Positions 2,250-18,000 of a DNA stretch of 20,274 bases are shown one piece after another. Source of the DNA: a virus. The notes beneath the pieces were generated by a model. That model was not told the DNA's origin and searched no databases. It saw only the letters and a program-made list of their open reading frames with translations. Position numbers and translations under genes: made by a program. Where the stretch lies: the IMG/VR virus record IMGVR_UViG_3300010885_061695, positions 1 through 20,274 of that record. One strand, written 5' to 3'. Position 1 is the stretch's first letter, and each line of letters opens with the position of its first letter.

Positions 2250-4589
2250 ATGGGAATTGGACCTTTACCGACAGCACCGACAGCACCGAATAGAAGACTT
2301 CAACCAAGTGAATATTTCTTAAAAGCTTTAGAAGCTCAAAGAGCAATTAATACTCACATACATGAAATTGAACCAACAACTCCAATTTTTCTTTATGAGA
2401 TAGATTTAAACGAGATAAGACCCGCTTCAATTTCTTATCCAATTTCTTCTGGTCCTATAACGAATGGAGTATTAAGAATTCATAATGATTTTAATTTATT
2501 CAATATAAATAAAGGGATCATTAAATGGAGAGGAAATAATTATTTTCCATTTCCTGTTTATGGAGAACAATTTGATATCACATCTAATGGAACAATTCCA
2601 ACTCCAAAAGTTAAATTTTCAAGTCAATTTTTAGATGATGAATTTAATTCTTTTTATAAATATATTCGAATGCAGATTAATGACCTCAAAGATATAGTTG
2701 GCTCAAAAGTAACAAGAGTTAAAACTTTTGTAAGATATTTACATCCAGATAATTTTGTTGGAGGAGTTAATCCATTTAATGATTTTCTAGATACTCCATG
2801 GGCATCAAGAGATGGAGAGGTTTTAACAGTTAGAACTCTAGAAAGAGTCCCATCAGATTCTTCAAAATGGTTAATATATAATATTAAACAAACGAAATTA
2901 AATAATGGAATTTTTACATGTACAAGAACAGATGATAGACTAAAAACTTTAGATATTCAATTACAACAAAATAATTTTTATATAGAATCTTATGATTTCT
3001 TCAATTACATAACGAATGAAAAAATTTCAGATAATCCAGATATAGATTCATTTTCATCTGATGTGTTTATAATTCCTCATGCTTCTGCAAGTTATGCAAA
3101 CATTATTCCAAAAGCTACTCATGACTTCAGAAGAAAAAATTCAACAGAAACGTTAAAGTCTATATCTTATTATAATACAAAAACATTCACTAATCAAACT
3201 ACAACAAGTATATCTTATCCATTTTCACATGCAGATACACCAGATAAATTAATAAATTTTATTTCTTTAAGAGCAGATAACGAAATGATTAACAAAAATT
3301 TTAATTATTCTATAACAAATCAAACTAGTTCAACTTTTTCTGCAAATTTTTCAACACCATTAAGTGGTACATTTTATGTTAATTTTTTTACAATTTCAAC
3401 TGGGATTTATACTGGAGTGAATTATTTTTCAAACGAAGATGCTCAATTATTGGCTTTGAAATTAACGAAAGATTTTGGAACTGATACATCTGGAGAATAT
3501 AATATTGTATTTCCATTATCATTTCAAAATGTTCCAAAAATATTATTCAATAGTTGGGGAAATTCAGGATTCAAATACAATCAATATTTAAAAAACATAA
3601 ACTCAACAGGATGTACGCTAGTTGCAACTCATACTGGAGATAATATTGGATTATATACTCAAAATATTAATTTAATAGCGACAGATTATATAACTGAAGA
3701 TTCAACTCCTGTTGATAGTGCTCAAATATATACATCTTATCAAAATAACGCATCAAATTATTTAAGTCAAATAGGTAATACAGATATAGAAGTTTACGAA
3801 GTTGAATTAACTCCAGATATCTATTACATAGACAGAAAAGTACAAGAAGATTCTCAAAATGTTATTTATGAATTAGCATCATTATTAGATATAGAAGGAA
3901 TTAAAATACCAGGAAGATTATTATTATCTAAAAATTGTCCATTTACTTATCGAGGAGAAGGATGCTTATACGAAAGACAAGATAGATTAACTTATGCTCA
4001 TTCTGGAGTATATGGAGAAGTTAGCTCTATTATTGTAGCTGCAACTAATGATGGAACAGATGGTATTGCTAATACTGCTATAAGTTCACAGGAAAAATGT
4101 TTGGGATTACAGTCTGCACCACCAGTAGCAAATCTTAAAGATGATACTTTTTATGGTGCAAGTAAAAGTGCAGGTTGGGAAGATAAAGGAAGTTGGCAGC
4201 AAAATATTTACTATGTAAGTAATAATTATATTTTTATAGAAAAAAATGGAATTAAATATTATTTTGTATGTAAATTAAATCATACATCAAATTCATTAAA
4301 TTCTCCACCAAATTCAACCTATTGGGAATCAGATTCTTGTTCAAAAACTTTAAAAGGATGTAGATTACGATGGAAACAAAATCCTAATTTTACTGAAAGA
4401 ACTATTAATTTTAATTATAAAATGGTTCTTCCAGATGGTCAATCTATAAATAATACAGTATTAACCTTAAAATCACAAAGCCCTATTGATTCAAATGGAA
4501 AACCGCTAGTTGGAGTACTTCCTTTTGGAGGATATCCTTCTATAGAAGGAAAATATCAATCTCAACAAGGTGGAATGGGTGGACCATAA
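2250..4589 (+). CDS. L: Minor tail protein L, iron-sulfur type, greatly enlarged
   Basis: At 779 residues this is over three times lambda gpL (about 230). The N-terminal gpL domain is clear: FLYEIDLN at 47-54, KWRGNNYFPFPV at 92-103, and V-G-S-K-V-T-R-V-K-T-F near 150-160. The C-terminal gpL region follows from IPGRLLLSKNCPFTYRGEGC at 553-572 and ends CSKTLKGCRLR at 697-707 and LPFGGYPS at 757-764. C563, C572, C697 and C704 correspond to the four gpL cysteines that hold an iron-sulfur cluster. Inserted between these parts are a long beta-rich region (about 230-500), including an H-type-lectin-like stretch at 412-482, and a CBM5/12-like module at 640-693 placed between the two cysteine pairs. 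The protein should sit in the tail tip next to gpM and the hub. The Shine-Dalgarno is weak (AAGAAAGAG). Confidence 0.87.
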   Translation: MGIGPLPTAPTAPNRRLQPSEYFLKALEAQRAINTHIHEIEPTTPIFLYEIDLNEIRPASISYPISSGPITNGVLRIHNDFNLFNINKGIIKWRGNNYFPFPVYGEQFDITSNGTIPTPKVKFSSQFLDDEFNSFYKYIRMQINDLKDIVGSKVTRVKTFVRYLHPDNFVGGVNPFNDFLDTPWASRDGEVLTVRTLERVPSDSSKWLIYNIKQTKLNNGIFTCTRTDDRLKTLDIQLQQNNFYIESYDFFNYITNEKISDNPDIDSFSSDVFIIPHASASYANIIPKATHDFRRKNSTETLKSISYYNTKTFTNQTTTSISYPFSHADTPDKLINFISLRADNEMINKNFNYSITNQTSSTFSANFSTPLSGTFYVNFFTISTGIYTGVNYFSNEDAQLLALKLTKDFGTDTSGEYNIVFPLSFQNVPKILFNSWGNSGFKYNQYLKNINSTGCTLVATHTGDNIGLYTQNINLIATDYITEDSTPVDSAQIYTSYQNNASNYLSQIGNTDIEVYEVELTPDIYYIDRKVQEDSQNVIYELASLLDIEGIKIPGRLLLSKNCPFTYRGEGCLYERQDRLTYAHSGVYGEVSSIIVAATNDGTDGIANTAISSQEKCLGLQSAPPVANLKDDTFYGASKSAGWEDKGSWQQNIYYVSNNYIFIEKNGIKYYFVCKLNHTSNSLNSPPNSTYWESDSCSKTLKGCRLRWKQNPNFTERTINFNYKMVLPDGQSINNTVLTLKSQSPIDSNGKPLVGVLPFGGYPSIEGKYQSQQGGMGGP
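3483..3695 (+). other. H-type-lectin-like beta segment inside gpL
   Basis: Residues 412-482 of gpL include YNIVFPLSFQNVPKILFNS, then INSTGCTLVATH, then INLIATDY. This resembles the H-type lectin fold seen in many phage fibre tips: a strand ending in F-x-x-x-P-K-[IV], then a [VI]-x-x-[ST]-G-[FC] strand, then a closing strand. It lies in an insertion absent from lambda gpL. Pattern-level evidence only. Confidence 0.33.
4167..4328 (+). other. CBM5/12-like module inside gpL
   Basis: Residues 640-693 of gpL contain W643, W649, an N-x-x-Y-x-x-x-[NS] turn, a strand with Y-Y-F-V-C, a His, a PP, and the terminal Y-W. The order matches the module in gpM. It lies between the two cysteine pairs of gpL, so it would project from a loop of the iron-sulfur domain. 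Confidence 0.45.
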
Positions 4590-4593
4590 TTTT

Positions 4594-5346
4594 ATGGAAT
4601 TTAACTCTCAAATTAAAAGTCAAATTAAAGATTTGTCTCTTAAAAAATTTCCAGAAGAAATTTGTGGTTTTATTTACTCAGATAAAGATAATTACAAATT
4701 TGATATTTATCCTTGCAAAAATAAAGCAAATAATAAAATAAATAATTTTACAATTTCTCCTCAAGATTATTTAAATTGTCAAAGATTAGGCAAAATCGTA
4801 GCATGTTACCACTCTCATTGTAATGATAATATTGAATTCAGCGAAATAGATAAAAATAATAGTAACATATATAAGATTAATTATATATTATATAATGCTA
4901 AATATGATTACTTTAATTTCTATTTTCCTGGAACAAGTAATAATCCATATATAGGCCGACCATTTTTATTAGGTAAATCCGATTGTTTTACTCTTATGAA
5001 AGAGTATGCTCTAAAAGAAGAAGGAGTAAAAATAGATTTTCCCAAAGATTTAATTTATCCAAGAAATTTAGAAGATATCAAAGATTTATATGAAAATAAT
5101 TTTAAAAATCAAGGATTTCTTAAATTAGATAAAAACACTAAACTAGAGAAATCAGATGGAATTATGATGAAATTTGGATCAGTTTCAGATGAGTTTCCGA
5201 CTCATGCAGCAGTTTACTTAGGAAATGGATTAATTTTACATCAACCTTTTAACTCTTTTTCTTGTGTAAATATATATGATAATTTCTTCAAAAAGCATAC
5301 TAGTTATGTTTTGAGGTATAAGGAGCTAGGAAATGGTAAAGGTTAA
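4594..5346 (+). CDS. K: Tail tip assembly protein K: JAMM protease plus NlpC/P60 peptidase
   Basis: A 250-residue protein with the lambda gpK architecture. The N-terminal JAB/JAMM metalloprotease domain has all expected zinc and catalytic residues: E22 in PEEICGF, H73-x-H75, then after seven residues S83-x-x-D86. The C-terminal NlpC/P60 domain has catalytic C131 (KSDCFTLM) and H204 (THAAVYLGNG), with H216/Q217 as the likely third position. The NlpC/P60 half is expected to cut peptide bonds in peptidoglycan. JAMM enzymes usually cut after ubiquitin-like domains, and the neighbour gpI has one. I chose ATG 4594, just after the gpL stop, because the protein then begins like lambda gpK. An in-frame GTG at 4570 overlapping gpL is the alternative. 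The 3' end overlaps gpI by 14 bases. Confidence 0.92.
   Translation: MEFNSQIKSQIKDLSLKKFPEEICGFIYSDKDNYKFDIYPCKNKANNKINNFTISPQDYLNCQRLGKIVACYHSHCNDNIEFSEIDKNNSNIYKINYILYNAKYDYFNFYFPGTSNNPYIGRPFLLGKSDCFTLMKEYALKEEGVKIDFPKDLIYPRNLEDIKDLYENNFKNQGFLKLDKNTKLEKSDGIMMKFGSVSDEFPTHAAVYLGNGLILHQPFNSFSCVNIYDNFFKKHTSYVLRYKELGNGKG
5320..5325 (+). promoter_or_regulatory. Ribosome binding site of gpI inside the end of gpK
   Basis: AAGGAG lies 7 bases before the ATG at 5333 and within the gpK coding sequence. The following CTAGGAA resembles the CAAGG seen after the Shine-Dalgarno at 1141 and 244. It supports 5333 as the start and translational coupling to gpK. Confidence 0.75.
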
Positions 5347-6655
5347 ATTACATGGAGAGTTAGGCCAAGAAATTGGTGAAGATTGGAATCTAGAAGTATC
5401 TAGTGTGGCAGAAGCTTTTCGTGCCATAGAAGCTAATACAAGAAAATTAACTAAATTTTTAGTTTTACAAGCTGAAAAAAATGCAAAATATGAAATTTTA
5501 ATAAATAATCGACCATTATGGGTTCCTAAAGCAGAAGATCTTCCATTAGATTATAAGGATGTTAAAAAAGAACATTTTAGCATGCTTCAACAATCTGAAA
5601 TGTGCATGGATTTTGGAAAACAATTAAAAACTATAGATATTGTGCCAATCCTAGAAGGAGCTGGCAGCAGCGGTGGTGGAGGAGGAGGTGGAGGATGCTT
5701 TCCTGCTGGTACAAAAATATCTACTCCACAAGGAGTAAAGAATATAGAAGATTTAAAAGAAGGAGATGAAATACTGTCTTTTAATAAAGATAAAAATATA
5801 GAAATTGATGTTATAGAAAAAGTTTTTGAGCATGAGAATAATAAAATTTTAAAAATTACACTCTGGGATGGATCAATTGTAAGAGCAACACCCAATCACT
5901 GGTTCTTCAATGAATATAATAGATTTACTCCTTTAGAAAATTTTAAAGTTGGAGATGTTTTAATACATGAAAGTGGCGATGTAATGCCAATTGAAAAAAT
6001 AGAAGAAGATGGAAATGAAAAAGTATATAATTTCCATGTTTTTAAAAATCATACATATATAGCAAATAATATATTTGTGCATAATGGAGGAGGAGGAAAA
6101 GGTGGAGGAGGAAAAGGAGGAGCAGGAGGAGGAGGAATGAAAAGTATATTTGCCGTCTTCTTATCCATTATGTTAGCTCCACTTACTGGTGGTTCAAGTT
6201 TAGGTTTTATGAGTATACTTATGCCAGCTATTTTAGGACTTGTAGCTCTTGGAGTTTCAATGCTATTAATGAAACCACCACCAATGGTAAGTCCACAATC
6301 CATAGCTAATCCTTCTGCAGATTTTGAAGCGTCACCAGATTCTGGAGGAGGAGAACCTTCATACACATTTAATGGACCAGTAAATACAGTAGGAGAAGGA
6401 GGACCAATTCCTCTTGGATATGGAAGACTTATAATTGGAAGTCATCAAGTTTTTAGTTCTTATGATCAAATATATAGAATCCAATCAAGAAATAATGTAT
6501 ACGAAAGTGACGGAAAAGCACCAATTGGAATAGGAGCTGGAGAAAAGAATTATCCAACAAAAAGTTATTATTTTGATACTCAAGGATATCCTATAACTAT
6601 TCAAACTCCTGTTGCTATTGACGGATCTGTGTCGCAAAGTTCTTTATCGGTTTAA
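5333..6655 (+). CDS. I: Tail assembly protein I (ubiquitin-like) interrupted by an intein-like Hint domain
   Basis: The 440-residue protein is lambda gpI split by an insertion. Residues 1-108 are the beta-grasp ubiquitin-like domain, ending in the family's IDIVPILEGAG. Residues 114-121 are eight glycines. Residues 122-251 are a Hint domain. Residues 252-268 are a second Gly/Lys/Ala linker. Residues 269-313 are two hydrophobic segments, and the gpI C-terminal motif follows at 348-373 (GPVNTVGEGGPIPLGYGRL, then GSHQVFSS). Without the Hint domain the protein would be about 310 residues with one continuous glycine linker, close to other gpI proteins. Lambda gpI acts in tail-tip assembly. The ubiquitin-like part may be cut off by the JAMM domain of gpK or, here, by the Hint domain. 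It overlaps gpK by 14 bases and ends 4 bases before gpJ. Confidence 0.9.
   Translation: MVKVKLHGELGQEIGEDWNLEVSSVAEAFRAIEANTRKLTKFLVLQAEKNAKYEILINNRPLWVPKAEDLPLDYKDVKKEHFSMLQQSEMCMDFGKQLKTIDIVPILEGAGSSGGGGGGGGCFPAGTKISTPQGVKNIEDLKEGDEILSFNKDKNIEIDVIEKVFEHENNKILKITLWDGSIVRATPNHWFFNEYNRFTPLENFKVGDVLIHESGDVMPIEKIEEDGNEKVYNFHVFKNHTYIANNIFVHNGGGGKGGGGKGGAGGGGMKSIFAVFLSIMLAPLTGGSSLGFMSILMPAILGLVALGVSMLLMKPPPMVSPQSIANPSADFEASPDSGGGEPSYTFNGPVNTVGEGGPIPLGYGRLIIGSHQVFSSYDQIYRIQSRNNVYESDGKAPIGIGAGEKNYPTKSYYFDTQGYPITIQTPVAIDGSVSQSSLSV
5672..5695 (+). repeat. Glycine-codon tract before the Hint domain (GGN x8)
   Basis: Eight consecutive Gly codons, mostly GGA and GGT, end exactly at the Cys codon of the Hint domain. 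With the tract at 6086-6136 they form imperfect direct repeats bracketing the domain. Confidence 0.85.
5696..6085 (+). other. Hint domain: mini-intein or bacterial-intein-like (BIL type A) element
   Basis: Residues 122-251 of gpI. Block A is CFPAGTKISTPQGVKNIEDL, with the nucleophile C122, followed by the conserved GDEILSF. Block B has T186-P-N-H189 (TxxH). Block F is VYNFHVFKNHTYIANN, with Asn at 233 where inteins usually have Asp, and H240. Block G is IFVHN, ending in H250-N251. The next residue is Gly252, so the Cys, Ser or Thr needed for ordinary protein splicing is absent. The residues for N-terminal thioester formation and for Asn cyclisation are all present. At 130 residues there is no room for a homing endonuclease. 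BIL type A domains lacking the +1 nucleophile are known to autocleave and sometimes splice; which of these happens here is unknown. Confidence 0.92.
6086..6136 (+). repeat. Glycine-rich codon tract after the Hint domain
   Basis: Seventeen codons encode GGGGKGGGGKGGAGGGG, nearly all GGA, and begin at the codon right after the terminal Asn of the Hint domain. It is a direct-repeat partner of 5672-5695 and contains two internal GGxGGAGGAAAA units. Confidence 0.85.
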
Positions 6656-6659
6656 TTAT

Positions 6660-9600
6660 ATGGCTAAAAAATGTAAAGATTGTGATCCAAATAAATATAT
6701 AGAAGGTTTAGCGTATAGAGGCGCAAACGGAATTTCTTATGATGGATTTATCAACTACAATAGCGTAGGGAAACCAACTCAAACAGATGTAACATTAGCA
6801 GATGTAAATGCATTGCTAGATGCTTATAATCCTATTTTTGGAAATGATGATACTACTGCTTTGCCTCCTCAATCTGCGCCTCTTTCATTAAAAGGTATTG
6901 ATAGAAGTCAAGGATTTTGGTTAGTTTGGGGTTTAACAAAAGGTTTAGTAGCGTTTGGTATTCCTGGTCAAAAATTAACTGCAGCCAGTATCCTTAATGG
7001 ATATAATACAACAACAAAAAAAGGAGATAATTTTAATTTTACTGTTACTACAGATCAAGTACCAAGTAGTTTATTTTTTACTGATTTTGGAAAAATAGCT
7101 GATACTGGCTCTAGTGATCCATTAAGATTTAATAGTGCCCTAACAGTACAAAACAGCTTAATTAAAGATAAGATGAATTATGTAGGATACTATACGGGTA
7201 TTATTGTATCGACCCTAAATGGTAGTAAATATATTACGACAGGAACAGGTAAAAATAAAAAAACTCAATTAGAAGTTCTTATAAGTAAAAAAAGTTTAAC
7301 AATTAAATCAAAAGACTCACAGGGGAATGATCCGATTTATGTGACCAGTGCTCCAACAATTCATCTTTTTAAAAATACCACTTTTTCTTATACGTTAACA
7401 ACAAATTTACCGCAAAGTCAATATACAGTATATCTTAGTCCAGCTGATATCAATAGTTTGCAATTATTAGGACTTACTTGGAATAGCTCCAATAAAACAA
7501 TAACTGGCGTGGGTTCAAGTTCACTTGCTGCCGCTGCTAAAAATTTAAGTTTAACTTTTACTGTATATGGTCCAGATAAAGACTCTGGAAATAAGCAAAC
7601 ATTTACATTAGGTATTGTTTACGGAGGTTATAACAGTAAAGAAACATTACCAACAATATCCAATAAAGTATTTAATTTATCAGTTGGTGACGATGTTGGA
7701 AAATTACCTTTAAATGGATTAAATAATAAACATACAATCATAGGAATAGCTTCATTACCCGAAGGATTAACTTTTAATGCAACATCTAAAAATATAACTG
7801 GTACGCCAAAACATGCTGGAACTTTTTATGCATATGCTAGTTGTTCAAATTTAAGAGGATCAAGCAGTAAAGCCACATTAACTTTTAATATAGGCCCGTA
7901 TGTTTTAAATGCAAAAGCCGCAGGAAATACATTTCCTAGCGTAATTAATTTTCCTAAATGGAGCTTTGATAAGATTAAAAATAATTCAGTAACAATATAT
8001 GCAAAACCATCTGGAGATGATATATTAGCATACAAAAAAATTAATATAAGTGATCTTCCAAATATAATAAAAAATGGAGTCCCAACAGATCCAACCGATG
8101 CACAAATAGCTCAAGGCGCAGATCCAAGAAGAGTTCGAAAAGGATTTATGACTGAAATTTTTTACCCTGGTAGAGGAATCAATGAAGAGAGTTATTTTTG
8201 GTTGAGTTTAGATGATCCTACAAAAAATAATACAAAATCAGGAGAATTTAATCTTGAATTAAATGGAAGATATTATTTAAATTATTCAAGTGCAGCAGCA
8301 ATAGATAACCTAGATAATGCTTGTTTTAATCCAACTTCAACGTCTAGTGGTCCAGCGTCTACACCTTATAGTGAATCTTTAAAATTAACTGCTACGAATC
8401 TTGTTAAAGGTGGCATAAGTGGAAATCCAGCAGACAATGTTATAAGCGTTAGTTTTTCTCCAACTAACATAGAACATCAAGTAGTTTATTTAAGTGGACC
8501 AGGACCATTCGATACAGCTAGTGCATTTGCTAAAACAACATTAAGTAGTGGTAAACTAAAATATCCAAATGGAATACCTAATAGAAATGGTACATATACA
8601 TTTTATATCAAAGCTATGGATACTTGCGCTTTTAATTCTAATACGCAAGAATTTGTATCTTATATAGGATCATACTCTCCAAGACCAGGAGATGTATATA
8701 GTTGCTATTATGAATATTGGCAAAGAGGTTATTGGACTTACAATAAAAGCACTCGTAGAAATGATCTTTGGGTTGTTTGTAATAATAATAATAGAGGCTG
8801 TATAAATAGGAAAGTTTCAGGATATCAAAATGTTGTTTTAGGGGGATATAGTATTCCAGGTGGTTGTAATGCGGTTGTATCTTATACTGGAAATACCGTC
8901 ACAAGAGATAATTATGCTTATAGATATGGTAATACTTTGAAAGATTCAAAAGATATAGGAATAAGTTCTTTAACAAATATATCTATTTTAGATGTTTTAG
9001 GCGAAGGACCAATAGAAGGAATTGTTGATTATGAAATATCTCCAAATGCAGGATATGCTCTAGGTGATATAGGATATAAAAATGGTGTTACAATCAAACG
9101 TTACTCACCAAACGAATACGATAAATATGGCATACTTAGATCTATTTATTGGAATGAAATACCTATAGCAGATAGTTCATACGATAAACCTGGTAGTTTA
9201 AATTTTGAATTTATTAGACTTTACTATGACAATGGATCAAGCGCACCAAAACATACAAATATACAATCTTTAGAAAATATAAATCTAGAAGAAGAATTCT
9301 ATACTAGAAGATTATTAAATGGAACTTATGTAAATTTTTTAGAAGCAGTCGCTACAGATGGAACGTATATAGGAAATAGCATTAAATTGCCTAAAAAATT
9401 AACAAATACAAAAGTAGTAGGAACAAAATTATTTGGTAAACGAGTCTTTCAAGATGGAACTTCTAAAACTTATAAAAAATCATTAGTTATTCTTAATAAA
9501 GATATTTCTGGATTAAGACTACATATAAAAGGCTTAAGTTTATTTAAAACTATTGTAGATTTAACCATTTGGGATTCGGCTGATCAAGCAGCTGCAAATT

Positions 9601-11720
9601 CAGTTGCTGGCAGAATAGATCGTCAAGAAATGAGTTTCAATTTATATTTAAAAAGAATAGATGTAGGTCCTGATGGTAAAACAGTTACTTTAATTGGTAA
9701 TCCAAAATACACTGGAGCTACTACTGGAACTTATAGCATTTCATTAAGAGACTATTATGATCAATATTTTGTAAAAGAATATGATGTATTGAATCTTTAT
9801 TATCCACCAAATGATCCAGGTGGTCCTGGAAATGGACCAGATGGTTACCAAAGAGTTCCAAATTATGATCAATTTATAGCTGGATATACAACTTATTCTC
9901 ATAGACACGATGGTAAAGTTTATAATAGTTATGCTAAAGACGTTAATAAATCAAATTCAGACTTGAATGCAAGATATTATGATCACGTAAATCAAAGACT
10001 AAGATATTTTGCTGGAGAAGCAAGAGATTATTCTACTTTAACTATGGTTGGTAAATTAAATCAAGGGCCTTATATTGAAACTTTTGAATGGACGGGATTA
10101 AAAGAATCTGCAAAAACTGGATTTAATCAAGCAACCACAATAGGATGGGAAATAGAAATAGAACCAACTTATATAGAGAGTGTAGATCCAAACGTAGTAA
10201 TAAAAAGCGCTATAGATTCAATAACAGAAATGTATGATGATTTTATTTCTATGCCTAATACCGCTGGAGTTCTAACTACATTTGATGCTAGATATTTTAC
10301 TAGTATTCCACAAAGAGCCTATGATGTAAGAATGCTTAAAGTTAAAGTTCCATCTAATTATAATCCTTTTGCAAAAACTTACGATGGAATATGGGATGGA
10401 ACTTTTAAATTATCATGGACAGATAATCCAGCTTGGTGTTTTTATGATTTAATAACTAATAGAAGATATGGATTAGGAAAATATGTAGACCCAGACCTCA
10501 CAGATAAATGGACATTATATGAAATTGGTCAATATTGTGATCAATTAGTTAGCGCTGGACAAGCTGGTTTATATGAGCCAAGATTTACATGCAACGTCTT
10601 AATTAGCACAAGAGAAGACGCATATAAAGTTATTAATGATATGGCGAGTATTTTTAGAGCGATAGTGTTTTATAATGGTGGATTAATATTCACTTCACAA
10701 GATCGACCAAAAGATGCAATATATATATTTAATAATAGTAATGTCAAAGATGGAGAATTCACTTATAGCAATACAAGCAAAAGAGTCAGAAGAAATGTTG
10801 CTCTAGTAAGATACAATGATAAAAATAATTTTTACAAACCAGCAGTAAAATATGTAGAAGATAGAAATGGTATAATAAGATTTGGAATTAGAGAAACTGA
10901 GGTAAGTGCTTTTGGTTGCACTAGCGAAGGACAAGCAGAAAGACTTGGAAAATGGACACTGCTATCAGAAAATTTAGAATCAGAATTGATTAATTTTGAA
11001 ACTAGTTTACCAGCGATGTATTTAAAACCTGGAGATATTGTATTTATACAAGATCAAAATAGACAAAATAAAATTCTTGGTGGAAGAACTTATGAATTGA
11101 CAAAAGATCATGCTATTTTAGATGTCTCATACGATAATATATCTGGATATTTAAATTCAATTAATGCGTGCAATTTTAATGTATTAACACCTGCAGGCAA
11201 CGTAGAAATTGGCACAGAAATAGGGAATTTTGTAATAGAAAATGCAGACCAATTAAATACTCCAGTTACAATTGATAATGAATTAGTCTCTGGAATAAAT
11301 TCAAAAACTATTAGAAGAAAACAAATACAAACTGTTCAATATGAATCAGCATTTACTAAAACAAACACAGGCGATACTAGTATATTCCAAAATTTTGTTT
11401 CAGTTGTGGATAGTGGTAATTTCGCGGGATATACTAAATTATCTTTTGGTGGACAACTTTTAGATGACAAAACTCATACTTTAATGCAAAATACAGTATG
11501 GACGATAGAAATTAATCCAGATAATTACGATGAACAATATAGTCCAAGTATTAGTGGATTTAACAGTAATGGAGCATATCCTGGTTCAGGATTAGAGCCT
11601 CATATAGACAAAACTCAAAAGTTTAGGATTTTAGATATAGAAGAGCAAGAAGAATTTAGATATAAAATCACAGCTTTACAATATGATGAATCAAAATTTA
11701 AATTAGGAGATGACATTTAA
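6660..11720 (+). CDS. J: Tail tip hub / host-specificity protein J with long N-terminal extension
   Basis: From the ATG at 6660 the protein has 1686 residues. The gpJ core starts near residue 770 (SLTNISILDVLGEGPIEG, GEGPIEG at 781) and includes VPSNYNPFAKTYDGIWDGTF from 1230, IGQYCDQ at 1289 and FGCTSEGQAERLG at 1418. It ends YKITALQYDESKF close to the C-terminus, which matches the end of the lambda gpJ hub region. The lambda distal fibre region is absent. The first 770 residues are extra: a CKDC motif at 5-8, at least two Ig-like domains (about 225-325 and 330-412), further beta-rich sequence, and a Cys-rich patch from 682. gpJ forms the hub at the tail tip. An earlier in-frame TTG at 6612 is unlikely. 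No Shine-Dalgarno is visible; the gpI stop 4 bases upstream suggests termination-reinitiation. Confidence 0.92.
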   Translation: MAKKCKDCDPNKYIEGLAYRGANGISYDGFINYNSVGKPTQTDVTLADVNALLDAYNPIFGNDDTTALPPQSAPLSLKGIDRSQGFWLVWGLTKGLVAFGIPGQKLTAASILNGYNTTTKKGDNFNFTVTTDQVPSSLFFTDFGKIADTGSSDPLRFNSALTVQNSLIKDKMNYVGYYTGIIVSTLNGSKYITTGTGKNKKTQLEVLISKKSLTIKSKDSQGNDPIYVTSAPTIHLFKNTTFSYTLTTNLPQSQYTVYLSPADINSLQLLGLTWNSSNKTITGVGSSSLAAAAKNLSLTFTVYGPDKDSGNKQTFTLGIVYGGYNSKETLPTISNKVFNLSVGDDVGKLPLNGLNNKHTIIGIASLPEGLTFNATSKNITGTPKHAGTFYAYASCSNLRGSSSKATLTFNIGPYVLNAKAAGNTFPSVINFPKWSFDKIKNNSVTIYAKPSGDDILAYKKINISDLPNIIKNGVPTDPTDAQIAQGADPRRVRKGFMTEIFYPGRGINEESYFWLSLDDPTKNNTKSGEFNLELNGRYYLNYSSAAAIDNLDNACFNPTSTSSGPASTPYSESLKLTATNLVKGGISGNPADNVISVSFSPTNIEHQVVYLSGPGPFDTASAFAKTTLSSGKLKYPNGIPNRNGTYTFYIKAMDTCAFNSNTQEFVSYIGSYSPRPGDVYSCYYEYWQRGYWTYNKSTRRNDLWVVCNNNNRGCINRKVSGYQNVVLGGYSIPGGCNAVVSYTGNTVTRDNYAYRYGNTLKDSKDIGISSLTNISILDVLGEGPIEGIVDYEISPNAGYALGDIGYKNGVTIKRYSPNEYDKYGILRSIYWNEIPIADSSYDKPGSLNFEFIRLYYDNGSSAPKHTNIQSLENINLEEEFYTRRLLNGTYVNFLEAVATDGTYIGNSIKLPKKLTNTKVVGTKLFGKRVFQDGTSKTYKKSLVILNKDISGLRLHIKGLSLFKTIVDLTIWDSADQAAANSVAGRIDRQEMSFNLYLKRIDVGPDGKTVTLIGNPKYTGATTGTYSISLRDYYDQYFVKEYDVLNLYYPPNDPGGPGNGPDGYQRVPNYDQFIAGYTTYSHRHDGKVYNSYAKDVNKSNSDLNARYYDHVNQRLRYFAGEARDYSTLTMVGKLNQGPYIETFEWTGLKESAKTGFNQATTIGWEIEIEPTYIESVDPNVVIKSAIDSITEMYDDFISMPNTAGVLTTFDARYFTSIPQRAYDVRMLKVKVPSNYNPFAKTYDGIWDGTFKLSWTDNPAWCFYDLITNRRYGLGKYVDPDLTDKWTLYEIGQYCDQLVSAGQAGLYEPRFTCNVLISTREDAYKVINDMASIFRAIVFYNGGLIFTSQDRPKDAIYIFNNSNVKDGEFTYSNTSKRVRRNVALVRYNDKNNFYKPAVKYVEDRNGIIRFGIRETEVSAFGCTSEGQAERLGKWTLLSENLESELINFETSLPAMYLKPGDIVFIQDQNRQNKILGGRTYELTKDHAILDVSYDNISGYLNSINACNFNVLTPAGNVEIGTEIGNFVIENADQLNTPVTIDNELVSGINSKTIRRKQIQTVQYESAFTKTNTGDTSIFQNFVSVVDSGNFAGYTKLSFGGQLLDDKTHTLMQNTVWTIEINPDNYDEQYSPSISGFNSNGAYPGSGLEPHIDKTQKFRILDIEEQEEFRYKITALQYDESKFKLGDDI
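7647..7895 (+). other. Putative Ig-like (He_PIG-type) domain in the gpJ extension
   Basis: Residues 330-412 of gpJ show the signature SLPEGLTFNATSKNITGTP followed by A-G-T-F and a final strand TLTFNIG. This is the usual order for putative Ig (He_PIG) repeats found in surface and fibre proteins. A more divergent copy may precede it at about 7336-7630. Confidence 0.65.
11704..11709 (+). promoter_or_regulatory. Ribosome binding site of the gene after J
   Basis: AGGAGA lies 10 bases before the ATG at 11720, inside the end of gpJ. The gpJ stop and the new start overlap as TAATG, typical of translational coupling. Confidence 0.6.
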
Positions 11721-11974
11721 TGAGTGCGCCTATTATCAATAGTACATTATCTGTTTCTGCAAATATTGGCGAATATTTTGAATATACTATAACTGCTTCA
11801 AATTCTCCAACAAGTTATAACGCGACTAATTTACCAGTAGGTTTTAGTATTAATAATGATTCTGGATTAATAAAAGGAGTACCAAGTATAGCTGGATCTT
11901 ACAGTATTGATCTTTTTGCTACTAATGTAGATGGAACAGATTCGCAAACTTTAACATTAAATATTCAAGTAAAA
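11720..11974 (+). other. Putative Ig-like (He_PIG-type) domain at the fibre N-terminus
   Basis: Residues 1-85 show the L-P-x-G-[FL]-[ST]-[IF]-N then G-x-[PI]-[KS] layout of the Ig-like domain at residues 330-412 of gpJ. Shared domains in neighbouring proteins suggest exchange or duplication within the tail-tip region. Confidence 0.65.
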
Positions 11975-14900
11975 GATTCTATTTTAAACTTAAGCACGAA
12001 TATCATACAAACTGTTTCTTCTCCAGATGCACAAATTTCTATTATTGATATAACTAAAAATACAAAAGGATTTAAAGTTAATATTAAGCCTAAGAAAAAT
12101 ATAGATGATATAAAATATTACAATGTATATCTAGATAATATTAATTTCAATTTAAAACCAAATACTAATGATAGTTCTTTATTAATTAAACAATTACCTT
12201 ATTCAGAATTAGAACAAACATTCGACTATATTCCTAGAAATAGTGGATTACATTATCTTACTATTTTTTCTAAAAATTCACTTGGTTACGAATCTTCTGG
12301 AATACTATTTAGTGGTATCATTCCTAATCAACAAGTTATAAAAGAAATAAGTTTTAAAAATTTTAATTATTATAAAAATGATAAAAATGATACAGATGAC
12401 GCGCTCATTGGAGAAATGAATATCTTTCCATCTTCTGGTCAAATTACTGTAAATACACCATTTTCTTTAATTGGTTTTGAAATAGATTATCTTTCTGAAA
12501 CTACAGAAGAGGTCGCTAATTTTGAAGGATTTTATTTAAAAGATTTTTCTAGCTATTTCAAAGAAAAAGCACTTAATGTATACTGTAGAGTAATTCAAGC
12601 TTTAGATAATAATAGTGGAATTTTATTTGATAATACATTACTTAGGAATACTTCAAATGATGTATTTACTTTCCAACAAAAAGGTGATTCAGTAATTAAA
12701 GACAGTTATAAAAATGATTTGTCTATAAGAAATACAGATTTAATTGCAGATAATCAAAATAGAAGCATTATTCCAAGCAACAGTAGATATTTTATATTTG
12801 ATTATATAAACAATCATAATGCATTTATATCTAAAAATACAAGATATGAAGAAGCGGTAAATTCCCAAAATAATTTATTATTTAATCCAGAAAAAGATAC
12901 AGAATCTTCATTTTTACAAAAAATGTTAAATGCTACAGGATTAACAGGAGAATTAAATAAAAATTATATTCTAACTACTAATCCAGGACATTACAATACT
13001 TATTATATATCAGTAGAGTTGACAGATGAAAATGGATTTTCTTCCGCAGGAGGAAATGTTGAAAGTCCAAGTAATACAGATCTAGAAAGATACACGAATC
13101 AGGATGGATATAAAATAATAAAAATAGAACATAATACTATATCAAGAAATAAAGTATCAAATATGTTCAAAAATTATAGAAGAGAAGATAATAAGATCGT
13201 TTTTGATATAAAAGGTGATTTACCTATAGATATTGGATTAAACTCTATTCTTATTATTCCACAAAAATATCAAGAAAATATAAATCTACAAGAAAACAAA
13301 ACCTATTTTGATGACTATATCTTCTTAAGAAATATTGATGATATAAAAGCTCAAAATGAAAAGAATTACAAAATAGAAATGATAGATTCTCAAAATGAAT
13401 CTAAATATAGAATAACAACATATTTAAATCCAGATAGTCCTCTATTAAAAGATAATATATTCTCTGCTAAAATTTATTACTTGAATTCATTACAAGCTCA
13501 TTCTTTGAGCTTCTATTTATCTGAGAATGGATATACTCTAAAAGCTTTATTGTATTATATAAGTAATACAGAAGTAATTGATAAATATATAGTTTTAAAT
13601 AAATTTATAAAAGATAATCAGAATTATACTTCTACAATTGCTGCAAGTTATCAAGGTCTTGTGTACTTTTTCACACCAGAAAGCTTCCCGTATATAGCTT
13701 GGCCAGATCAAAAATATAGAGAAAATTATTTAAATAAACATGGAGCTAGAATGCTTGATTTTGAAGCAGACGGAGTAGCTTCTGGTCCAGAATTTTTTGA
13801 TTACTTTCCAAAAGCAAATGCTGAAATATATGACAATTTTCCATCAGAAATTCAATACAAAACAACTTATAGATGTTTAGATTCTTATAAATATAGTAGT
13901 AATAATCTTCTTGAATTTTTAACTCCAGAAGATGTGCCCACAAATGGTATTAATGGAAGTAGTAGTTATCTTGGAGTTTATGATCCTGGAAATATTGGAG
14001 ATGTGGATTCTCCAAATACAGCAGATTTTAAGAGTATTAATAATGATTTGGTATATTTTAAATCTAAAAATATATCATATATTAAATTTATTAGTGCTGG
14101 AATGCAAAAAGATGATGCTTATGCTATTATAGAATTTATATTGGATATACCAGATGCTCAAGATTTTATAGTACAAGGAATATCTGGAACAGATACTATA
14201 CTAGAAAAAGGTATTAAAGAAATTAATGGTGTAAATCATCATTATTTTGTTGCTAAATTTGTATCATCCTGTGGAGTAGATACAGATCCTATATTGAATG
14301 GTACTCCAATTAATCAAAAAAATATAGTAGATTCTAAAAAGATGATATCTTTCTTAATTTATCCTACTAAAATTAAAATAATAGAAGATCCAGATGATGT
14401 GCCATTTTTCGGAGATTTATATCTTCTTGCAACAAGCTTTGATAATAATCAATTCAGCATCCTTAAGGAATGTCCTTATACAGTATTAAATAATTCAACA
14501 GATTGCGTAAAATCATGTTGCGTGCAACCTGAAGATACAATTAACCAAAAATCAATTTTTGCTAATTTCCATATATTAAGTAGACATATAGGAAATCAAA
14601 CTGGTAATAATTACCCATATGGTAAAATAGGAGGCACAACTAATAACGTATTAGGATCTATTGCTTATAGATATAAAGCCGCAAATTATAGTACTTCTAA
14701 TATTACATTAGAGTATAAAAAGCCAACAAATCAAATTAATCCTCTTAATTTTGGTATAGTATGCTATCCAGAACATAATGTAGCTTTAGATAAAATTCTT
14801 ATATATATGAAACAAGTAAATGATGTTAATAATATAACTTGGCAATCTGCTGATCTTATTGATAGTTATATTTTTGAAGATATTGTTAAAACTTATCCTA

Positions 14901-15085
14901 TATATCTTTCTATTCCTGACTTCACTTTCTCTAAAAAAGGCCCTTACTTATTTAATCAAATTAAAAGAGACTATGAAGCTTGGGTAATTGGTCAAAAAAC
15001 ATTTGCTGTAAAAATATTACTATTAGATAAAAGTGGAGATACACTAAGTCAAATATTTACATTTACTAACAACGAAAATTGTTAA
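11720..15085 (+). CDS. Probable tail-tip or fibre protein with N-terminal Ig-like domain
   Basis: A 1121-residue protein rich in Asn, Ser, Thr, Ile and Tyr and predicted to be mostly beta strand, with no signal peptide or membrane segment. Residues 1-85 are a putative Ig (He_PIG-type) domain with NLPVGFSINNDSGLIKGVPS, then AGSYSIDL and a final TLTLNIQV strand, like the domain inside the gpJ extension. Residues about 90-200 may be a fibronectin-III-like domain ending YLTIFSKNSLGYESSG. The rest is unrecognised. Near the C-terminus C918, C929, C933 and C934 form a cysteine cluster that could bind metal or form disulfides. Its start overlaps the gpJ stop (TAATG). Because gpJ ends at its hub region, this protein may be the distal fibre or receptor-binding part; that is inferred from position and domain type. 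Confidence 0.85.
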   Translation: MSAPIINSTLSVSANIGEYFEYTITASNSPTSYNATNLPVGFSINNDSGLIKGVPSIAGSYSIDLFATNVDGTDSQTLTLNIQVKDSILNLSTNIIQTVSSPDAQISIIDITKNTKGFKVNIKPKKNIDDIKYYNVYLDNINFNLKPNTNDSSLLIKQLPYSELEQTFDYIPRNSGLHYLTIFSKNSLGYESSGILFSGIIPNQQVIKEISFKNFNYYKNDKNDTDDALIGEMNIFPSSGQITVNTPFSLIGFEIDYLSETTEEVANFEGFYLKDFSSYFKEKALNVYCRVIQALDNNSGILFDNTLLRNTSNDVFTFQQKGDSVIKDSYKNDLSIRNTDLIADNQNRSIIPSNSRYFIFDYINNHNAFISKNTRYEEAVNSQNNLLFNPEKDTESSFLQKMLNATGLTGELNKNYILTTNPGHYNTYYISVELTDENGFSSAGGNVESPSNTDLERYTNQDGYKIIKIEHNTISRNKVSNMFKNYRREDNKIVFDIKGDLPIDIGLNSILIIPQKYQENINLQENKTYFDDYIFLRNIDDIKAQNEKNYKIEMIDSQNESKYRITTYLNPDSPLLKDNIFSAKIYYLNSLQAHSLSFYLSENGYTLKALLYYISNTEVIDKYIVLNKFIKDNQNYTSTIAASYQGLVYFFTPESFPYIAWPDQKYRENYLNKHGARMLDFEADGVASGPEFFDYFPKANAEIYDNFPSEIQYKTTYRCLDSYKYSSNNLLEFLTPEDVPTNGINGSSSYLGVYDPGNIGDVDSPNTADFKSINNDLVYFKSKNISYIKFISAGMQKDDAYAIIEFILDIPDAQDFIVQGISGTDTILEKGIKEINGVNHHYFVAKFVSSCGVDTDPILNGTPINQKNIVDSKKMISFLIYPTKIKIIEDPDDVPFFGDLYLLATSFDNNQFSILKECPYTVLNNSTDCVKSCCVQPEDTINQKSIFANFHILSRHIGNQTGNNYPYGKIGGTTNNVLGSIAYRYKAANYSTSNITLEYKKPTNQINPLNFGIVCYPEHNVALDKILIYMKQVNDVNNITWQSADLIDSYIFEDIVKTYPIYLSIPDFTFSKKGPYLFNQIKRDYEAWVIGQKTFAVKILLLDKSGDTLSQIFTFTNNENC

Positions 15086-18000
15086 CGGCCTAAATCTCTT
15101 CCCTTACTGCCTTGATATAATACTCCGCCTGGACGTTGTTCTTCTACTATAACTTTCAATACTTGTTGTCTTAATAATTCTGCAAGGACTCTTGATCTTT
15201 CCATTGTCTTTTTGAATTTCTCTTGATCAGTTTCTTCTTTATTGCTTCCAGTTTGATCTTCTTCTTTTGTGGAGTCTGTTGTTTTACCATTTTGATCAAC
15301 GTTAACGCTTATGTTTATATTATTAGTTACTCCTCCAGCTCCAGTTGTATCAGAAGTTGTTGCTCCACCTTCTGCTTGAGCTTTGGCTCCTTTATTTTGC
15401 TCTTCGATTCCTTTATTTAATTGCTCTAAAGATTTTACTAATTTTGTAATAGATTCTACAAATTGATTTCTAGAATTATCCTGTTGATTTGGTCCTACAC
15501 CTCCAACAGAAGGTAAAGCAGTTCCAACTGGACCACCTTCTGCAAATCCAGTAACTTGTCCTCTGTTTAATCTATCAAAAAATGGTTGTCCAAAGCGATC
15601 TACAGCATCTTTTCTAACTACATATTCTCCGCCCATAAGCATAGCTGGTACATCGTCCTTAGTAGAAGTTCCGCCATAAATCATTCCACCAGTAGCTCTA
15701 CTAGCCCAACTTGGAGTAATTCCTAATCTACTTCCTGTTGAAAACCAATTACTAAATACATTTCCTAAAGAATTAAATCCTGATTGATATCCTGTTCCAC
15801 CAAACCCACCAAAATTTTGACTTCCAAATGCAAATGGACTATACATGCTTGGGGTCATTGGATATTTAAAAGCATTAAATTGAGAAAGACTTGAGTATGG
15901 ACTTGCGCCAATATACTTTAGATAATTATTAAAACCTTTTTCACCAAATGAAGAGAATCTATTTTGTAAAGTATTGCCATAAAATGAAGAGAACTTCGAA
16001 GATAATCTGCCGTAATCACCTTTATTTTTAACATCATATAAGCTACCTACACTTTGATATAGAGTCGGTGAAGCTCCAGAAGTTTGGTCTATTATATTTT
16101 GTAAATTTTGAAAGAAAGGTAGTATTTGATCTGGAGATTGTTGATTTATTCCCAAGAAATCTTGTTGAGTAATAGCTTCTGCTACTGCTTGTGGAGTTAC
16201 TTTCGTTCCTCTTAAATAGTCTCCCATAGCAGGAGAAGGAAAACTCATTTTTGTTTGATAACCAGCACTAGGATTAAATATACTTCTATTATATAAATTT
16301 CCACCTAAATTATATAATGCGTCATAACCTTTTCCAGCTAAATTCTTCATTCCACCCAAACTAGCCATTAATGCTCCACCAATTCCACCTGCTCCACCAC
16401 CAATTGCTGGCATTTTCATTCCAGCATTAGAAATAGTTTTTGTAACGCCACCTTGAGGCATATTAAATGGAGTTGCATTTAATCTATTAGTATTAAATGT
16501 TGCAGCTGTTCCAGTAAAAGCTGGAGCATTAGTTGCTTTCAAGAAATTTGTTACAGCATTAGCACTTCTCGCCTGATTAGCAAATGGATTAGGCTGCATT
16601 CCTATTGTATCAATCCCTTTTGCTATTTGATTGGTCGAAGGAGAAAAAGATGTTAGTGGGAAAGATTGTTTTGATGGCAATCTAAATCCAGCCACTACAG
16701 CAGGAGTATTTGTACCAGCTATATTCCCTGCTGGAATACCCATATTCATTGCTGCAATTTTTGTTGCACCAGTTTTATTTAGTTGAAAATCAAAATGAGT
16801 TCCAGTCGCTCCAGGAGTTTTAGGGCCTTCAAAATTCAAAGAATAATCTTTTTCAGAAAGACCCATACTAGATAAATAATCTTTAATTTGTTGTTTTCCA
16901 GCTGTATAGTCATTTAATGTAAAATCACTTTTAAGTCCAGTTCTATGAGATGTTCCTGCGGACCTAACTCCAGCGTGATAAAGATCATTCATGCCAGTCA
17001 TTCTATTAAAATTAGATCCCAAAGCCCCTTGAATTCCTCCCATTAAATTTAATAATTCTGGACTATTGTATCCTCCACCAAAAGCCTGACCACCCATTTT
17101 TTGTAAATCTGCATAAGTACTATTTGTTGTTAATCCCATTTGAGCTAATGTATAAGTCTTTCCATCTGAACCTTTAACTCTTAAATTAAGAGCATTAGAC
17201 GGAAGATATTGATTTGCCATACCACCAGTTTGATAACCACGAACTAGTCCACCTTTTGCATATCCTCTATTATATCCAAATGGATTAGAATTTTGATTCA
17301 AGAAATCATAAACAAGATTTCCTCGACCAGGAGCAATTGGAGCAACAGGAGATGCAAAATTCATTAGATAATCTTGCTGTGCATTTTGAGTATAAGTTTG
17401 GAATCCTGCTGGCGCTCCTAATCCTACTCCAAATTGAAATCCTCCAATAGTAGAAGTTGGTTGACCATAGTTATAGCTTGAACCTCCATATCCACCCTGA
17501 CCACCAAATTGTGGAAATAGTTGAGCTTGTTGTTTTGAGAACGGATCGCCATAACCACCAAATTGACCTCTTTCAATTGCGTCACTCATAGCTTTTTTCT
17601 GATCATCTGTAAGCTTATTACCTACTATTGCTCCACCAGGCATACTAGAAAATTGCGAGAATCCTCCTGTTAGAGCAGTTTGAAGAAGACCTGCGCCTGT
17701 ATTAAGTATGCCACCAAATATACCTCCAAGTCCACCTCCACCTCCGCCTCCACCAAATAATCCACCTAAACCACCACCGCCACCTAGACCACCTAAAAGT
17801 GGTCCAGCAAGACTCATTCCAACATTTAGCAATCCACCAATCAACATGTTTGATCTTGCTTGATTATATGCAGCCATTCTTCTTGCATTTTCTTCGTCTG
17901 CTGCTTTTTGCGCTAGTCTTCTCTGCTCTTCTACTTGACGATATTGTTCGTTATATCCAGTTTTAAAGTTTGACACTTGCTCTTGATAGTTTTGCATTCC

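Follow-up and report, generated by a model that had tools for sequence, protein, structure and literature searches.

The window analysed here is the whole 20,274-nucleotide stretch of viral DNA in IMG/VR record IMGVR_UViG_3300010885_061695. It encodes a homologue of the lambda tail assembly protein I (gpI) in which a Hint domain lies in the Gly tether between an N-terminal ubiquitin-like domain (Ubl) and the C-terminal tail-tip plug. Judged from its sequence, this Hint belongs to the type-A bacterial intein-like (BIL) domains. By analogy with BILs that have been studied, the cassette in its flexible tether is probably active in a single-turnover self-processing reaction, in which the Ubl and the plug would be separated or loosely re-joined. 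The parts of the gene are as follows.

5333..6655, + strand: whole gpI gene with Hint (440 amino acids plus stop; 24 related contigs)
5333..5662, + strand: Ubl (MoaD/SAMP/Urm1-like beta-grasp), residues 1-110, with the conserved terminal Gly109 at 5657-5659
5663..5695, + strand: N-side Gly tether, residues 111-121, the last eight being Gly; varies among relatives; direct repeat with the C-side tether
5696..6085, + strand: Hint (type-A BIL-like), residues 122-251, with Cys122, T186-x-x-H189 and His250-Asn251 (from profile, model and structure matches)
6086..6139, + strand: C-side Gly/Lys tether, residues 252-269, starting GGGGK, with Gly at +1 (from alignment and the direct repeat)
6140..6652, + strand: gpI C-terminal part, two predicted hydrophobic helices, then a plug/beta-strand region (9l9p, 3.4e-9, residues 266-366; 25vf, 4.5e-6; phrog_4554)

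Domain architecture of gpI

The translation of 5333-6652 reads ...ILEGAGSS-GGGGGGGG-CFPAGT...FVHN-GGGGKGGGGKGGAGGGG-MKSIF, with exactly eight Gly (residues 114-121) directly before Cys122 and GGGGKGGGGKGG directly after Asn251. An initial annotation of this DNA had described Ubl, polyglycine and Hint in series within gpI, and the series is confirmed by the translation, the profile matches, the models and the related contigs. Since the same part order is found in every related contig that extends over the N-terminal part of gpI, the architecture is neither a chance product nor an assembly artefact. The gpI identity also holds. The first part of the protein matches phrog_32 (tail assembly protein, 4.8e-24, best stretch residues 1-114) and has both the ..IDI.P..EG motif and an N-terminal MoaD/ThiS-type beta-grasp domain with a conserved terminal Gly. 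The C-terminal part contains the hydrophobic helices and plug region, matching two solved phage tail assembly proteins (9l9p and 25vf), and the gene is located between those of gpK and gpJ, in the order K-I-J.

Residues 1-121 were modelled with 50 homologues, giving a mean predicted local distance difference test score (pLDDT) of 87. Foldseek alone gave no significant match for this model (best E 0.14). In a second look with VIA-align, the first 23 structural matches, aligned as far as residues 107-110, are all of the MoaD/SAMP1/Urm1/CysO type; the highest Z, to the MoaD-related 1v8c, is 8.1, a value near 8 being one for which the tool cautions that the similarity may be mere resemblance. The beta-grasp reading, for which the initial annotation had proposed a structural check, is nevertheless safe because the match list is uniform and the assignment has been published (Iyer 2006, PMC1779556). 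Gly109, which pairs with the C-terminal Gly of MoaD in the structural alignment, lies 12 residues before Cys122 and marks approximately where the Ubl-like fold stops. A 12-residue tether, and not the Ubl itself, therefore abuts the Hint, which refines the earlier placement of the Hint directly behind a Ubl-Gly8 unit. The full-length AlphaFold model of gpI is poor except for the Hint and part of the Ubl.

The Hint domain

Residues 122-251 match the Pfam families PT-HINT (2.6e-11) and Intein_splicing (2.7e-9) and the NCBIfam model intein_Nterm (1.3e-9). Among solved structures, CthBIL4 of Clostridium thermocellum (2lwy) is the nearest relative (3e-18 by profile). Over the Hint, the AlphaFold model has pLDDT values mostly of 77-94, with dips to 63-73 in some blocks. 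The first Foldseek match is again CthBIL4 (5.6e-12, target TM 0.85), followed by BIL2 of the Tetrahymena BUBL1 locus (1.2e-11, target TM 0.78), with the gp41-1 intein close in the list (1.1e-10, target TM 0.89). In a comparison by sequence only, CthBIL4 (2.5e-13) and gp41-1 (5e-10) are much nearer than the BUBL BIL2 (4e-5).

The domain has the Hint fold of ~130 residues, Cys at position 1 (where the class has Cys or Ser), the block B TxxH and the C-terminal His-Asn that characterize type-A BILs, and it lacks an endonuclease domain. Cys1 and the terminal His-Asn are present in all 66 distinct phage Hints that were tabulated, and none of the 66 has Cys, Ser or Thr at +1, as expected of type-A BILs; the +1 residue is Gly in 17/17 distinct gpI Hints. 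Canonical protein splicing by these phage tail Hints is excluded because the +1 residue is Gly in gpI and never the Cys, Ser or Thr that a class 1 intein would have. The insertion site is also not that of a class 1 intein, being a variable Gly tether instead of a conserved functional position in the host protein.

Conservation and selection among relatives

Collections (IMG/VR and others) were scanned by patterns, and the counts given here are those among the matches listed. A scan of IMG/VR with the gpI protein yielded 24 viral loci. The order Ubl, Gly tether, Hint, GGxGK tether and plug is kept in all of these contigs that cover the region, and every gpI of the clade, to as low as ~70% identity, has the Hint. 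The invariant columns in the alignment of Hint-bearing gpI include Cys122, T186, N188, H189, H250, N251, G252, G253, G255 and K256. The tether between the Ubl Gly and the Hint varies in length and kind (GGGG, AQG, PQG, SSG, NS, SS), and so does the -1 residue, which is Ser in two lineages (L015 and L022).

The median pN/pS in Hint-bearing gpI is 0.28 for the Ubl, 0.26 for the Hint and 0.22 for the plug side. In near pairs, the dN/dS values are 0.21 for the Ubl and 0.14 for both the Hint and the plug part (Nei-Gojobori style, with synonymous sites near saturation for far pairs). These low ratios indicate that the Hint is maintained by selection and is not decaying. In the window, the Hint is bordered exactly by Gly-codon direct repeats of 24 nucleotides, 83% identical.

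A profile survey covered 124 distinct gpI, which are not a random sample. Nineteen have the Hint, all of them in one clade and all at the same site, so the survey of homologues at this exact site that had been suggested earlier finds a constant position; the other 105 have none. Hint-less gpI have the motif ..IDI.P..EG(A/S)G, then zero to few Gly, and then directly the hydrophobic helix. No Hint was found in other gpI lineages among the matches listed from two pattern scans, the gpI scan and the Hint scan of IMG/VR, some of the patterns being narrow.

Hint domains at the gpJ N-terminus

The N-terminus of gpJ is a commoner place of this Hint family than gpI. There the Hint directly follows the GSGG or GAGGG of a short N-terminal leader and precedes GGGGK or KGGGG, with no Ubl in front, which rules out that the Hint is specific to Ubl domains. 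In a Hint-profile scan of IMG/VR, unbiased to Gly flanks or gpI, 61 loci lie outside the clade, and about half of them (31 by eye) are gpJ N-termini. The remaining matches include true inteins in other genes, some with visible HN-Cys ends; no further gpI is among the matches listed, and some marine gpJ Hints end in Ser-Asn, not His-Asn.

The Gly-flanked Hint at the gpJ N-terminus is widespread, occurring in diverse uncultivated phages as well as in Leptolyngbya genomes (L030, L041, L043, L047, L049, L066, L073, L078, L108, L114, L116, L119, L121, L175, L178, L181-L183 and others). These gpJ Hints are seemingly undescribed and a larger finding than that in gpI itself. The gpJ leaders are conserved whether a Hint is present or not, and an empty site can be seen in Hint-less gpJ: L172 reads RGAGGGKSCSP (KFYPKVLRGAGGGKSCSPRPPPDPHTP), compared with RGAGGG (KFYPKILRGAGGG)-Hint-GGGGKGG-Hint-GGGGGGGGGKCRPNPPPDPHTP (GGGGGGGGGKCRP) in L063. 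Tandem Hints with the spacer GGGGKGG, and with catalytic residues intact in both copies, are found at the gpJ start of L063, L118 and L131.

The GGGGK flank on the C-side of the gpI Hint is the same as that of gpJ Hints and is absent from Hint-less gpI. In a maximum-likelihood tree, the gpI Hints form one clade (92/98) nested in a group (96/93) that includes gpJ Hints as well. The simplest history, on these sequences, is probably that the cassette passed once from gpJ to gpI and took its GGGGK flank with it, for which the Gly-codon direct repeats could offer a route.

A genome scan for VHNGGGGK gave real gpJ Hints only in two Leptolyngbya genomes among the matches listed; a Magnetococcales metagenome-assembled genome has a Hint in another context, and the other matches are due to chance. 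For cultured phages, the tblastn matches to gpJ-Hint queries that were inspected begin after the Hint, and the gpJ start is plain Gly-rich and without Hint in the five records mEp043, Medea1, 48ST307, AS5 and Scapp. A weak phrog_31 extension upstream of gpJ in cultured phages proved to be no Hint, and a Hint match in the phage collection record MT836326 was set aside, as it is in an Rhs-like open reading frame (ORF). L298 and L306 have a Hint inside a Gly-rich, possibly tail-fibre-like ORF (T-Cys...HN-GGGGGGG).

Neighbouring tail-tip genes

The genes on both sides of gpI are as follows.

4570..5346, + strand: gpK homologue with JAB metallopeptidase and NlpC/P60 domains (Prok-JAB 1.1e-7, NLPC_P60 1.3e-5, phrog_30 1.9e-57), overlapping the gpI start
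6660..11720, + strand: gpJ homologue, without Hint in the window (Phage-tail_3 7.8e-21, phrog_2589, phrog_31)

By sequence inspection, the JAMM residues E..HSHCNDNIEFSEID and the NlpC Cys of the window gpK are all intact. The JAMM motif is likewise intact in each of the 18 Hint-gpI loci whose upstream sequence is available; the Hint therefore comes in addition to the JAB, and a role as substitute for a lost JAB was rejected. The gpI group closest to the window clade (L171-L174, L179 and L182) has no detectable gpK (JAB/NlpC) upstream in ~5 kb.

Many relatives (L008:7321-12687, L009-L012, L014 and L015-L024) have a second Hint in the middle of gpJ, in a Cys-containing loop (YSC...T-Cys...HN-R/G/M); the window gpJ has a different loop, without Hint, at this position. 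Farther away, the gpL homologue at 2250-4589 (+) is much enlarged, at 779 residues, and its two gpL parts are separated by an insert weakly matching an H-type lectin (E 0.028). A 1121-residue ORF at 11720-15085 (+) lies between gpJ and a 1727-residue Gly-rich protein at 15082-20265 (-), possibly a tape measure protein, for which the opposite strand downstream of gpJ is an unusual place.

Proposed processing and alternative explanations

Type-A BILs with a His-Asn end and no +1 nucleophile form an N-terminal thioester and undergo C-terminal cleavage by Asn cyclisation; they can also join their flanks via the freed amine, with cleavage products dominating (PMC4031507, PMC7664689). From these precedents we infer the activity of the gpI Hint, its products, their timing and their benefit, as well as all of the following chemistry. 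An N-S acyl shift at Cys122 would place a thioester on Gly121, a first step that the initial annotation had also proposed and that is supported by homology and the conserved residues. Cyclisation of Asn251 would free the plug part with an N-terminal GGGGK. The thioester would then be resolved mainly by water because the +1 Gly has no side chain to take it over, releasing the Ubl with its tether, while the new N-terminal amine of Gly252 may in part attack the thioester and re-join the two halves. The net effect, Ubl and tail-tip plug separated or loosely re-joined, would be like the predicted action of the gpK JAB. The cassette family mostly resides in the Gly run of the gpJ N-terminus, with gpI having acquired it once, probably from gpJ. 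The more frequent occurrence of the domain at a gpJ start without Ubl suggests a general processing element of the tail tip and not ubiquitin-style tagging. The lambda gpI is in the virion, where residues from ~101 on (the H1/H2 hydrophobic helices, the plug and the gpJ-pairing strands) are resolved and the N-terminal domain (1-100) is unresolved (PMC11101478, PMC10721106); the window Hint falls near this border, where the cut by the gpK JAB was also predicted (PMC1779556). Some points weigh against such self-processing. The gpJ leader and the gpI Ubl stay conserved in Hint-bearing phages, which fits re-ligation as well as cleavage; the JAB is retained, leaving the benefit of a second cutting device unexplained; and the cassette could be a near-neutral passenger.

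Conserved flanks bear directly on the alternative that the Hint is a self-removing insertion, spliced out when, after cyclisation of Asn251, Gly252 attacks the Gly121 thioester, so that gpI is restored with a longer Gly tether. Both flanking parts of gpI are under selection, gpJ leaders are maintained whether or not a Hint follows, and Gly-Gly junctions should chemically be the least hindered case. However, tested type-A BILs give mainly cleavage products (PMC7664689, PMC4031507), some gpJ leaders, such as the ~9 residues before the Hint in L114, leave little to restore, and the tethers vary with no visible pressure for an exact junction; we regard this splicing as unlikely. A passenger that moves by recombination among the Gly-codon tracts of tail genes, its processing harmless since the tethers are flexible, would account for the direct repeats at the exact Hint borders, for presence and absence among close relatives at the gpJ N-terminus and in mid gpJ, for the tandem copies, and for Hints in Gly-rich regions of other ORFs. 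It is less likely still, given that all gpI of the clade keep the Hint, that the catalytic residues are never lost, and that dN/dS is as low as in the plug part. Decay to an inactive class 1 intein that has lost its +1 nucleophile is the least probable of all: a Hint fold with neither +1 Cys/Ser/Thr nor endonuclease domain would suit it, but Cys1, TxxH and His-Asn are invariant over the clade and purifying selection is evident.

The initial annotation had proposed a possible BUBL-like system, in which the thioester formed by the Hint would activate the Ubl and allow its conjugation to another protein with no need for an E1 enzyme. The Gly121 thioester is indeed the expected first intermediate, and the BUBL1-locus BIL2 ranks second in the structure search, even though CthBIL4 and the gp41-1 intein match as well or better and the nearest Hints are bacterial and phage. 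A ThiF-type E1 (PF00899) is found in 0/7 related viral contigs of 38-96 kb, which fits either reading, as the contigs may be incomplete and an E1 of the host might serve. The commoner Hint context, gpJ, has no Ubl, the gpI Hints are nested among gpJ Hints, and most distinct gpI (105/124, in the non-random sample) do without a Hint. The conserved Gly109 of the Ubl is remote from the junction, where the last residue is Ser in two lineages; there is a single Ubl with a single Hint behind it and none in front; gpK keeps an intact JAB site; and the sequence indicates no acceptor or partner. BUBL-like activation is thus unsupported, and we consider it highly improbable. The annotation had taken Hints at unrelated positions as evidence against it: the site proved constant within gpI, while the same cassette occurs in a different protein, gpJ, with nothing to activate. 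Scarcely more credible is a ligation in trans, in which Hint-made thioesters of gpI, and of gpJ where both have a Hint, would be used for E1-free covalent joining, the Ubl-tether thioester in one chain being attacked by an amine on a different tail-tip protein, such as the new N-terminal GGGGK of a gpI plug or of gpJ.

Comparison with known systems

The closest described relative of the gpI Hint is the type-A BIL CthBIL4, which likewise has a Hint fold of about 130 residues with Cys1, TxxH and a terminal His-Asn and neither a +1 nucleophile nor an endonuclease. The type-A BILs described so far are found in variable parts of bacterial proteins (PMC7765530), whereas the gpI Hint is carried by a conserved tail-tip protein of phages, within a Gly tether. 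The polymorphic-toxin HINT autopeptidases (PMC3482391) are also placed between two protein parts, with expected release of the C-terminal part; in gpI there is no toxin, and the released part would be a structural tail-tip plug.

The initial annotation knew of no described phage system of this kind, overlooking a prediction that concerns the phage Ubl: Iyer et al. 2006 predicted that the JAB peptidase of gpK releases the Ubl of gpI in phages (PMC1779556). The lambda pair shares with the window the beta-grasp domain, the Gly-rich linker, the C-terminal hydrophobic part, the K-I-J order and the JAB in gpK. As described there, it has no Hint, whereas the window gpI has a putatively self-processing Hint in the linker besides the JAB.

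In ciliate BUBL genes, as in the window gpI, a Ubl-fold domain is followed by a BIL domain in one chain, and the Hint folds are alike (6y75/6tmm). In the BUBL arrangement, the Ubl domains are flanked on both sides by BIL domains, the terminal Gly of the Ubl is directly at the BIL junction, and the Ubl is transferred to another molecule. The window gpI has one Ubl of the MoaD/SAMP type with one Hint behind it, 12 residues separate Gly109 from Cys122, and the Hint is closer to bacterial BILs and phage gpJ Hints.

Significance for tail-tip biology

Self-processing Hint domains in conserved tail-tip proteins of lambda-type phages appear undescribed, none having been found in the literature searched. 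They bear on the fate of the N-terminal domain of lambda gpI, which is unseen in tail structures: a natural variant with a built-in Hint at that border makes it testable whether the Ubl is meant to leave the plug. Should the phages benefit from the cassette, it would represent a new way of timing tail-tip maturation; if they do not, it would represent a new mobile niche for BIL domains.
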